From NCBI RefSeq assembly GCF_016907915.1, contig NZ_JAFBCW010000002.1, positions 1 to 64,000 on the forward strand: a stretch of DNA of 64,000 nt, written 5' to 3'. A model generated the notes under the pieces. It made no database searches. It saw nothing but the letters and a program-made list of their open reading frames with translations, and had not been told where the DNA came from. The position numbers and the translations under genes were made by a program. Shown piece by piece: positions 1,076-61,350 of the stretch (positions within the stretch are counted from its first letter, which is position 1; every line of letters begins with the position of its first letter). Source of the stretch: Desulforadius tongensis. GTDB lineage: Bacteria > Bacillota > Desulfotomaculia > Desulfotomaculales > Desulfohalotomaculaceae.

Positions 1076-1081
1076 TTAGCA

Positions 1082-1167
1082 GGATAACACTTTCAGGGCA
1101 GACTCTCATGCCCAGCGTTTATGAATGAACCGCAGCCACCGGCTTTAGAACCGTAACATTTTTCAGG
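1082..1167 (+). repeat. Two copies of a dispersed TTTCAGG motif in the ctsR-mcsA gap
   Basis: GGATAACACTTTCAGG (1082-1097) and CGTAACATTTTTCAGG (1152-1167) match motif copies in front of thyX, cwlD and amrS in this window. Between them lie a small hairpin (GGGC...GCCC) and a segment resembling the cwlD leader (GCG, TTTATG, CCGCAGCCA in the same order). Function unknown; it interrupts an otherwise tightly packed heat-shock operon. Confidence 0.55.
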
Positions 1168-1196
1168 GGAAACAATAATTAAAGGGGGGGTTGCTT

Positions 1197-10262: not shown

Positions 10263-10962
10263 AGTATATGCGATAATTCCCGCTGCCGGTACCGGCAGCA
10301 GGATGGGTTCTAAAATAAAAAAACAGTACCTGCAGCTGCAGGGGCTGCCGGTGCTGGCTCATACTATAAATATTTTTGAAAAATGCCCCTTTGTAGATGG
10401 TATAGTGGTAGTTGTGGGTAAAGAAGATGTTTCCTGGTGCCGGCAAGAGATAATTGAGAAATATTCCTTTCAAAAAGTGCTGTCGGTGGTTCCCGGTGGG
10501 GACTGCCGGCAGCATTCGGTATATAACGGCCTGGTGTCGCTGCCGGCGGGCGAAGATGATGTTGTTATGGTACATGACGGGGCGAGGCCGCTGGTGACGG
10601 CGGATATACTGGCAGATGCCCTTTCGGCGGTCCGAAAAAACGATGCGGTGGCTGCTGCCGTGCCGGTGAAGGATACTATCAAACTGGCTGACGCTGAACA
10701 AAAAGTGATTGATACCCCGCCCCGGGAAAAACTTTGGGCGGTGCAAACACCGCAGGTATTTAAGTACCGGCTTTTAATGAAAGCCTACCGGCATGCCGCG
10801 GATAATGATTTTGCGGGAACAGACGATGCATCGCTGGTGGAAAAGCTGGGACATGCTGTTCACCTGGTTTCCGGCAGTTATGAAAATATAAAAATAACCA
10901 CCCGGGATGATATGCTGCTGGCTGAGTTAATACTAAAAAGGAGAGGGTGTGCTTGCGAGTAG
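10249..10962 (+). CDS. ispD: IspD, 2-C-methyl-D-erythritol 4-phosphate cytidylyltransferase
   Basis: Third step of the MEP isoprenoid pathway: joins CTP and MEP to give CDP-ME. The 237-aa protein has the nucleotide-binding PAAGTGSRMG loop near residue 10 and VHDGARPLV around the metal and CTP site. It overlaps yacL at its start and ispF at its end. A downstream TTG (two codons later) is an alternative start. Confidence 0.96.
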   Translation: MPLAKVYAIIPAAGTGSRMGSKIKKQYLQLQGLPVLAHTINIFEKCPFVDGIVVVVGKEDVSWCRQEIIEKYSFQKVLSVVPGGDCRQHSVYNGLVSLPAGEDDVVMVHDGARPLVTADILADALSAVRKNDAVAAAVPVKDTIKLADAEQKVIDTPPREKLWAVQTPQVFKYRLLMKAYRHAADNDFAGTDDASLVEKLGHAVHLVSGSYENIKITTRDDMLLAELILKRRGCACE

Positions 10963-15739: not shown

Positions 15740-15833
15740 GTGCCCTGCAGAAATAATGCCCTTTTTCTGTGGGGTGCAGTTTGCTAAAACCCTTAAAATC
15801 AAGATACCATTTTTCAGGTTAGGATAAGGAGAG
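15740..15833 (+). other. thyX leader: hairpin plus dispersed TTTTTCAGG motif
   Basis: TGCCCTGCAGAAA and TTTCTGTGGGGTGCA form a 12-13 bp imperfect hairpin. About 20 bases later comes AAGATACCATTTTTCAGG (15801-15818), identical over 18 nt to a copy in front of cwlD. Including the following TTAGGATAAGGAG the match is 28 of 31. The motif overlaps the approach to the thyX ribosome site. Function unknown. Confidence 0.6.
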
Positions 15834-55780: not shown

Positions 55781-55821
55781 GCCCCCGTAAAATGTATTGA
55801 TGCATTTTACGGGGGCTTTTT
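55781..55821 (+). terminator. Strong intrinsic terminator upstream of cwlD
   Basis: GCCCCCGTAAAATG and its complement form a 14-bp perfect stem with an eight-base loop, followed by five T residues. Confidence 0.93.
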
Positions 55822-55839
55822 GCATACCATTTGTTGAGA

Positions 55840-55965
55840 AGTTTCCCTGCCGTCCTGCGCATTTTATGGATCAGCCGCAGCCAAATTAAGGGAAGGGCGG
55901 CGGTGAGGCAGGGAAGGCGAATATGCCGGGCTTGGTAAGATACCATTTTTCAGGATAGTATAAGG
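55840..55965 (+). other. Structured leader of cwlD with dispersed TTTTTCAGG motif
   Basis: TTCCCTGCC (55843-55851) and GGCAGGGAA (55907-55915) form a 9-bp perfect outer stem. Inside, CTGCG (55855-55859) pairs with CGCAG (55876-55880). Then come TGCCGGGCT and AGATACCATTTTTCAGG (55938-55954), shared with the amrS and thyX leaders. No known riboswitch class was recognised. It lies between a strong terminator and the ribosome site, so a leader RNA is plausible, though no promoter was identified. Confidence 0.5.
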
Positions 55966-55976
55966 GGTGGTAGTGA

Positions 55977-56726
55977 ATGTCAATACACTTTAAAGTGATA
56001 CGCTTACGCAAACGTTACTTAATTTACGGAATTTTAATAGCTGTTTTAGCAGTGAAACTGTACGGAATGACACAGGTACGCGTGGAACAAAAATCTATTT
56101 CAACTATGTCCTGGTCGGTGGCCAATAAAGTAATAGTGATAGATCCCGGGCACGGGGGCATGGACCCGGGAAAAATAGCAGGCAACGGGGTGGAAGAAAA
56201 AGAGATTAATTTGGAAATTTCCAAACGCCTGGCCACAATATTAAGCCAGGCCGGGGCGGCGGTGCTTTTAACCAGGGAAAGCGACGTGCACCTGTCAAGC
56301 CCGGATACTAAAGGATGGCCGGCCAAACACCGGGAGGATCTATCAAAAAGAGTTAAGCTGGCCAATGACCGCGGCGCGGATTTATTTATCAGCATCCACT
56401 GCAACAGTTTTTCAGACCCCAAACAGCATGGGGCCCAGGTATTTTACCAACCGGGTTCAGAAGAAAGTAAAATGCTGGCTGAATGTATCCAGGACGAAAT
56501 TATAAGGCTCTTGGACAATACCAAACGCAGAGCCAAGGGCGTGGACTATTATGTAACCAGGAATACCAACATGCCCACAGTAATAGTGGAAACCGGTTTT
56601 ATTACCAACCCCAAAGAACAAAAACTGCTGCTGGACCCGGCTTACCAGTCTAAAATGGCCTGGAGTATTTATGCCGGTATAGTCAAGTATTATGCGGATA
56701 AAGCAGAAAAGTATGAAAGTAATTAA
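55977..56726 (+). CDS. cwlD: CwlD, N-acetylmuramoyl-L-alanine amidase
   Basis: Zinc amidase of the Amidase_3 family that, in spore formers, helps make muramic lactam in the cortex. The 249-aa protein has an N-terminal transmembrane segment (about residues 15-33), VIDPGHGGMDPGK with the first zinc histidine, VKLANDRGADLFISIHCNS with the second, and the catalytic glutamate in VIVETGFITN. ATG after AAGGGGTGG. Along with sigH it supports a spore-forming host. Confidence 0.92.
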   Translation: MSIHFKVIRLRKRYLIYGILIAVLAVKLYGMTQVRVEQKSISTMSWSVANKVIVIDPGHGGMDPGKIAGNGVEEKEINLEISKRLATILSQAGAAVLLTRESDVHLSSPDTKGWPAKHREDLSKRVKLANDRGADLFISIHCNSFSDPKQHGAQVFYQPGSEESKMLAECIQDEIIRLLDNTKRRAKGVDYYVTRNTNMPTVIVETGFITNPKEQKLLLDPAYQSKMAWSIYAGIVKYYADKAEKYESN

Positions 56727-61225: not shown

Positions 61226-61262
61226 CCCCATGCCCTAAAGGGCAGCAGCGGGAAATGAAAAG

Positions 61263-61339
61263 CCCCGGCGGCCATCTGCAGGAGCGAAGGTTTTTTCAGT
61301 GAGCAGCTGCCGGGCTCAGCAGGATAACATTTTTTCAGG
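61263..61339 (+). other. amrS leader: imperfect stem plus dispersed TTTTTTCAGG motif
   Basis: AGCCCCGGCGGC pairs imperfectly with GCTGCCGGGCT, enclosing about 30 bases. Then comes GGATAACATTTTTTCAGG (61322-61339). TGCCGGGCT followed six bases later by the motif is also seen in front of cwlD. The CAGGAGG end of the motif serves as the amrS ribosome site. Confidence 0.5.
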
Positions 61340-61350
61340 AGGTATTTGAA

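Follow-up and report, generated by a model that had tools for sequence, protein, structure and literature searches.

Is the sequence in front of cwlD in Desulforadius tongensis (G000) a regulatory leader of that gene, or one copy of something that recurs elsewhere? An initial annotation had described it as a structured leader and offered two readings, a leader RNA of a new kind and a small repeat that moves. We examined the locus within the window, a stretch of 64,000 nucleotides, and compared it with the rest of the genome and with related genomes. Our overall account, in which we have considerable confidence, is that the cwlD region holds a copy, shortened by two deletions and probably inert, of a non-coding element of about 290 nt that is structured and dispersed. 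The family is multi-copy, intergenic, directional and covarying, with a TwoAYGGAY RNA core, and one of its subfamilies transposes in a MITE-like manner.

Results

A deletion remnant lies before cwlD

The window copy extends from 55824 to 55958 and derives by deletion from a repeat that is dispersed through the genome (Table 1). The parts that the initial annotation had picked out were all present: the 9-bp perfect stem, the inner CTGCG/CGCAG helix, TGCCGGGCT and AGATACCATTTTTCAGG ahead of the cwlD start, and the strong terminator just upstream. Its picture of a locally structured RNA fared worse, as the 146 nt from 55830 to 55975 folded no better than their own shuffles (z = -0.37), and the 9-bp outer stem lies outside the family structure. 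No sigma-70-like promoter was called on the plus strand between the terminator and cwlD, and an Rfam scan of the cwlD region returned no family at the gathering score. R1, a covariance model built from six complete G000 copies and giving rough E values, matched 55832-55958 with 20.3 bits (E 0.00089), and the nhmmer profile that matched the core segment had been trained without the cwlD copy.

Table 1 Coordinates of the element copies and neighboring features in the window
Feature	Position	Strand	Evidence or remark
Native intrinsic terminator behind rpsI	55781..55816	+	Element lies directly 3' of it
Left degenerate terminal direct repeat, ATACCATTTgTtgAGA	55824..55839	+	Single in L112
Body of the shortened element, surplus relative to same-genus L112	55841..55938	+	Comparison with L112
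5' arm of the 9-bp stem	55843..55851	+	Pairs with 55907-55915; absent from family alignment and consensus
Type-1 core segment, GTTTATGGATGAGCCGCTGCCAAACTAAG..., 5' side of the long stem	55863..55913	+	nhmmer E 4.5e-7
Remnant of terminal hairpin 2, GGCAGGGAAGGCGAATATGCCGGG	55904..55930	+	96% identical to G000 copies on C26 and C20
Conserved tail, CTTGGTAAGATACCATTTTTCAGGATAG, the right terminal repeat	55931..55958	+	45 genomic matches
cwlD, host gene outside the element	55977..56726	+	ORF, 249 aa
Copy in the mcsA leader	1080..1171	+	Left tail 1080-1101; head and core fragment 1102-1138; right end and tail 1139-1171
Solo tail before thyX	15801..15829	+	Missing upstream of thyX in G001 and G002
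Short hairpin form, type 2 ends, with tail	61226..61342	+	R1 28.5 bits, E 1.1e-5
Possible extra fragment, weak	10496..10574	+	R1 12.8 bits, E 0.052

Hairpin 1 is gone from this copy and hairpin 2 has lost its closing stem by deletion; the copy has neither two AYGGAY hairpins nor a GGA within a hairpin loop. As we read the sequences, one event between direct repeats (CAGGG...CAGGG) would have taken out terminal hairpin 1, and another (TGCCGGG...TGCCGGG) the 3' arms. Having lost both loops and having no predicted activity, the cwlD copy is probably an inert remnant. The same-genus genome G001, whose cwlD product is 83% identical, has a counterpart of the terminator before cwlD and lacks the element: its locus (L112) reads terminator-TTGCATAACATTTTTTAGAAATTG...TTG, one tail-like motif without a body, whereas in the window that motif flanks a 98-nt body on both sides.

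The repeat is dispersed and directional

Searching the genome with 55820-55976 by BLASTN gave 42 matches on both strands of many contigs (best E outside the query 7e-10), and the tail GATAMCATTTTTCAGGRTAG had 45 genomic matches at ≤2 mismatches against none for the reversed pattern. All searches combined, the repeat occupies at least 71 distinct places in the genome. The motif that had been reported as common to the mcsA leader is indeed shared, its spaced pattern occurring only at 1113-1138 and 55858-55883 (0.08 expected by chance), and four of the five copies proposed for the window are clear, the fifth being weak (E 0.05). Full-length copies measure about 250-290 nt, an intact example in G000 being C17 21289-21538. 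Set in register, 59 fragments formed a mosaic alignment with internal deletions, in which a head bearing a small hairpin (ACACTCATGCCRYAAATGGCACCATCAGAGGATGAAAAGC) is followed by middle modules that vary and then by the tail. Copies consisting of a solo tail or of a short hairpin form were frequent, and the deletions seem to be bounded by short direct repeats within the element.

The copies face the genes behind them. With neighboring genes called by a simple ORF rule, on which all gene contexts rest, the downstream gene was sense at 41 of 46 tails and antisense at 5; among tails with co-directional neighbors it was sense in 34 cases (35 with one truncated case) against 2. Besides a preference at insertion, selection may contribute to this sense bias of the G000 remnants. 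The genes downstream of tails are mutually unrelated and, judged from protein sequence, presumably include mutS, lepA, divIVA, proS, valS, thyX, folE, selB and cheW among others. We located the orthologues in two same-genus genomes (G001 and G002) with one concatenated query and lined up their upstream regions: the insert, which in G000 sits between the upstream stop codon and the ribosome site, was missing at nearly all loci examined, and the tail had no match at ≤2 mismatches in either genome. G001, which has no recognisable copies, carries tail-like motifs before valS (L144) and cwlD. Because of the motif before valS, a few tails may predate the species.

A covarying structure is shared across genera

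For the six complete G000 copies, folding gives a single long, branched hairpin (minimum energies -102 to -127 kcal/mol for those printed), and 92.3% of the cells in their alignment are paired. Double changes occurred in 16 of 70 pairs against 8.8 +/- 1.9 after shuffling, a number reached in 0 of 500 shuffles, and slid partners gave at most 4. Since copies of one genome are related, this covariation alone could be a subfamily effect. R1 detected the element in 11 other genomes among 60 relatives, with 22 matches in G004, 23 in G013, at least 34 in G033, 31 in G053, 16 in G045, 9 in G027 and smaller numbers in five others; the richest genomes had best E values of 1e-41 to 1e-31 (lowest 3.6e-41), mostly over the full 250 positions. 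It detected no copies in G001 and G002, so the host can live without them. A species-specific repeat, as suggested by the scattered short BLASTN matches in relatives, was overturned by the covariance model; BLASTN is nearly empty where the model finds copies, and sequence-only searches are therefore misleading for this element.

Stretches around about 80 copies were searched again. In an alignment of 108 copies, 93.4% of cells pair and double changes are seen in 64 of the 70 pairs; covariation scores 0.516, compared with 0.166 +/- 0.004 for shuffled and at most 0.081 for slid partners. This alignment was fitted to the model and leans towards it; even so, the size of the effect leaves little doubt that the covariation is real. 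G.U cells (223) exceed A.C cells (83), which identifies the GGA strand as the structured one. A.G or G.A occupied 255 cells at structure positions, and the conserved unpaired GA of columns 38-39 faces columns 469-470 inside the stem. GA facing GA in a stem is a motif typical of RNA.

The initial annotation's mobile-repeat alternative was borne out by many further copies and by compensatory changes in the stems. Target-site duplications and empty sites in one subfamily, described below, add to them.

The family is placed with TwoAYGGAY

TwoAYGGAY (RF01731) has been an orphan RNA of unknown function since 2010. One G000 copy matched it over its whole length with 33.8 bits (E 0.0011, in a 401-base search with permissive thresholds). 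The gathering score is 43 bits: this copy was the best of those in G000, the cwlD copy had no match, and the Rfam model run over the G000 genome gave sub-threshold matches only. One of these, a full-length match of 23.3 bits (L176), was rejected as its surroundings look unrelated. In relatives the element exceeded the gathering score (L202 62.6 bits, L190 51.9, L191 46.7, L189 and L201 44.7), with family members in G015, G046 and G049 reaching 44-63 bits. Across the phylum, the Rfam model found TwoAYGGAY in 50 of 398 genomes, often in several copies among the matches listed, and in the reverse direction R1 recovered 15 of 30 loci detected by the Rfam model. The relatives' scores and this reverse recovery place the family with TwoAYGGAY; the G000 copies are classed as a diverged TwoAYGGAY subfamily that itself falls below the cut-off.

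In the full-length copies of 12 genomes, two AYGGAY-type hairpins were found, with GGA in 102 of 108 and 103 of 108 apices. The tandem G.A noted in the stem of TwoAYGGAY (PMC4333381) is also present in the family. RF01731 belongs to clan CL00106, that of CsrB; E. coli csrB, run as a control, gave the same clan number. The locus itself has no match at the Rfam gathering score, in keeping with the check by eye in the initial annotation, but the RNA is not wholly new, since full-length relatives match TwoAYGGAY. Such kinship would escape a check by eye against riboswitches.

Subfamilies differ in their ends and in their marks of transposition

The element ends sort into subfamilies. Subfamily B (G053, G045, G027 and G013) has the ends CTGAAGTATCCCCAG...GTGGGGATAACTCAG with inverted ends CTGAAGTATCCCCA/TGGGGATAACTCAG, and identical 9-mers flank 10 of its 16 copies, where 0.6 would be expected on re-pairing. 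At one locus, G045 reads AACCGTTAGAT-[260 bp]-CCGTTAGAT-CTGTTGACA and G053 has the empty site AACCGTTAGATCTGTTGACA; this is a transposition with a 9-bp duplication. Inverted terminal repeats together with a target duplication of fixed length, the marks of a MITE, were found in subfamily B only. Subfamily A, to which the window copies belong, has heads GTAGACGCCCATGACGC... and tails TATTTTCAGGRYAG in G053 and G045, often with GTAG ahead of the head hairpin. It lacks the combination seen in subfamily B: G045 has an empty site without duplication at a G053 copy, and the comparison of G000 loci with G001 and G002 revealed no consistent target duplication. GC skew in the orientation of the element was positive in 66 of 101 cases, with no strict replication-strand rule. 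For two copies shared by descent, identity is 237/238 and 244/244, compared with 93-94% and 90-97% in the respective flanks, consistent with constraint or gene conversion.

Several further arrangements were noted. Copies of other subfamilies in G033 and G013 (L282, L297, L298, L316, L319, L320) have a terminator-like hairpin on each side; the two hairpins are nearly identical, as though the upstream gene's terminator had been duplicated on insertion. G004 copies (L301-L312) have a further outer inverted repeat, ACAGGTGGCTTTTGCC ... GCAAAAGCCACC, by which the unit would be longer than in other genomes. A T-box leader in G053 (L249, 2337-2882) is split by a full copy, the element occupying 2493-2736 of a 546-nt T-box match; this insertion is common to two species (G053 L249; G027 L277/L198), and the element is 100% identical between them. 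Also in G053, a lysine riboswitch (L254, 2272-2460) adjoins a subfamily B copy, and in G000 a truncated SAM riboswitch match below the gathering score (L086, 1-74) lies near a full-length copy.

Both terminal loops are conserved around GGA

We reduced the copies to 42 representatives with less than 85% mutual identity. In these, conservation in the two loops is 0.97 and 0.93 for the A and 0.97 to 1.0 for GGA; the position following GGA varies freely (0.62 and 0.45), and unpaired columns average 0.67 identity. Both terminal loops thus present GGA in a hairpin loop, as expected of a CsrA-binding RNA. CsrA-family proteins bind ANGGAN loops (PMC7652899), and for TwoAYGGAY CsrA binding was proposed in 2014 on the strength of motif matches (PMC4333381). 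The genome of D. tongensis has two CsrA genes, on C38 and C5. Of 93 copies whose upstream gene could be classed clearly, about 66 had that gene in sense orientation.

Discussion

Two readings would tie the sequence before cwlD to expression of the gene behind it. A cis-regulatory leader of cwlD, such as a riboswitch or attenuator, would suit a sense-oriented position between the rpsI terminator and the cwlD start; it is largely refuted and, in our judgment, highly improbable, because the same tail precedes dozens of unrelated genes (mutS, lepA, proS, valS and selB among them), the same-genus relative has no body before its cwlD, so that conservation before this gene is lacking, and the local copy is a deletion remnant that folds at the level of its shuffles. 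The leader half of the initial annotation is accordingly unsupported, and a leader RNA specific to cwlD is ruled out by the empty relative and the copies before unrelated genes. The tail GATAMCATTTTTCAGGRTAG might instead be a stand-alone promoter or translation signal beside which hairpins merely gather. Solo tails 10-30 nt ahead of start codons speak for this, as do the tail-like motifs before cwlD and valS in G001, but most pairs compared have no tail before the orthologue, neither same-genus genome has a match at ≤2 mismatches, and full-length elements of other genera finish with a similar end, TATTTTCAGGRYAG; we consider it improbable.

More weight attaches to the possibility that the element works as DNA only, a REP- or IS200-like palindrome that a transposase recognises in its folded, single-stranded form, with the GGA loops as recognition marks. 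Conserved hairpins can serve transposition as single-stranded DNA, which counts against an RNA role. Subfamily A often opens with GTAG and a hairpin, as GTAG-tagged REP elements do (PMC3733652), and has a strong orientation bias and no target duplication; the genome also holds one Y1 (IS200-type) transposase gene (L174, G000 C15 61123-61482). However, that gene has an in-frame TAA and its flanks are unlike the repeat, so the sole candidate for a Y1/RAYT partner in this genome is not a convincing mobiliser. Subfamily B keeps the same core and loops, yet its inverted ends and 9-bp duplications mean that another machine moves it, and the conserved G.A pairs and the excess of G.U over A.C point to RNA. 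On balance we think a DNA-only element unlikely.

We return to a mobile element with an RNA core. It is likely to be copied as DNA by borrowed transposition machinery that differs between subfamilies, and then to decay, again likely, by deletion between internal short direct repeats into short hairpins and solo tails. As the ends differ while the RNA core is conserved, the element has probably changed vehicles. Counting against this account are the scores of the G000 copies below the TwoAYGGAY gathering score and the lack of a clean duplication in subfamily A. If TwoAYGGAY is the core of a multi-copy mobile element, its patchy distribution would be explained. The locus also illustrates that repeat debris may pose as motif-rich leaders when single genomes are read.

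What intact copies do can be put forward with more reserve. They would mostly be transcribed by read-through from the upstream gene and fold as they are made; the two ANGGA loops could then hold a CsrA dimer, and bound copies might titrate or recruit CsrA. That intact copies act in this way as RNA, predicted from their loops to bind CsrA, with the cwlD remnant having no specific effect, seems to us nearly as probable as its opposite, and intact copies may also affect neighboring genes. Still more tentatively, and with rather more doubt than belief, we propose that TwoAYGGAY is a nomadic, predicted CsrA-binding RNA carried on several unrelated transposable vehicles in Clostridia, whose insertions add CsrA sites, whose copy number sets free CsrA and whose wreckage seeds the 5' regions of genes. 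The known CsrA antagonist in Bacillota is a protein, FliW. If CsrA binding holds, sites for a post-transcriptional regulator would be spread by a transposable element, and the family would give Bacillota a sponge system like that of CsrB. The CsrA proposal is directly testable thanks to the natural presence/absence pairs at orthologous sites.

Comparison with known systems

As in TwoAYGGAY, the long stem has G.A pairs and carries two terminal hairpins, whose loops are of the AYGGAY type. The element differs from TwoAYGGAY alone in being a longer unit of about 250-290 nt around that core, in its tens of dispersed copies and in having one subfamily that has demonstrably transposed; in the papers searched, TwoAYGGAY was nowhere described as a repeat or MITE. 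Subfamily B resembles bacterial MITEs in being short and non-coding, with inverted ends, exact 9-bp duplications and an empty site. Unlike them, the family has a conserved RNA core, and its other subfamilies, including that of the window, end differently and show no clear duplication. REP, ERIC and BOX repeats are intergenic, palindromic, modular and internally deleted, and the element resembles them in this; it is much longer, has an ancient core common to several genera and massive covariation, and carries GTAG only in subfamily A. Finally, like the CsrA-sequestering RNAs of the CsrB/RsmZ type, the element has GGA in hairpin loops and shares the Rfam clan of CsrB, but it has only two GGA hairpins per copy, is spread over many dispersed copies and is known from sequence.
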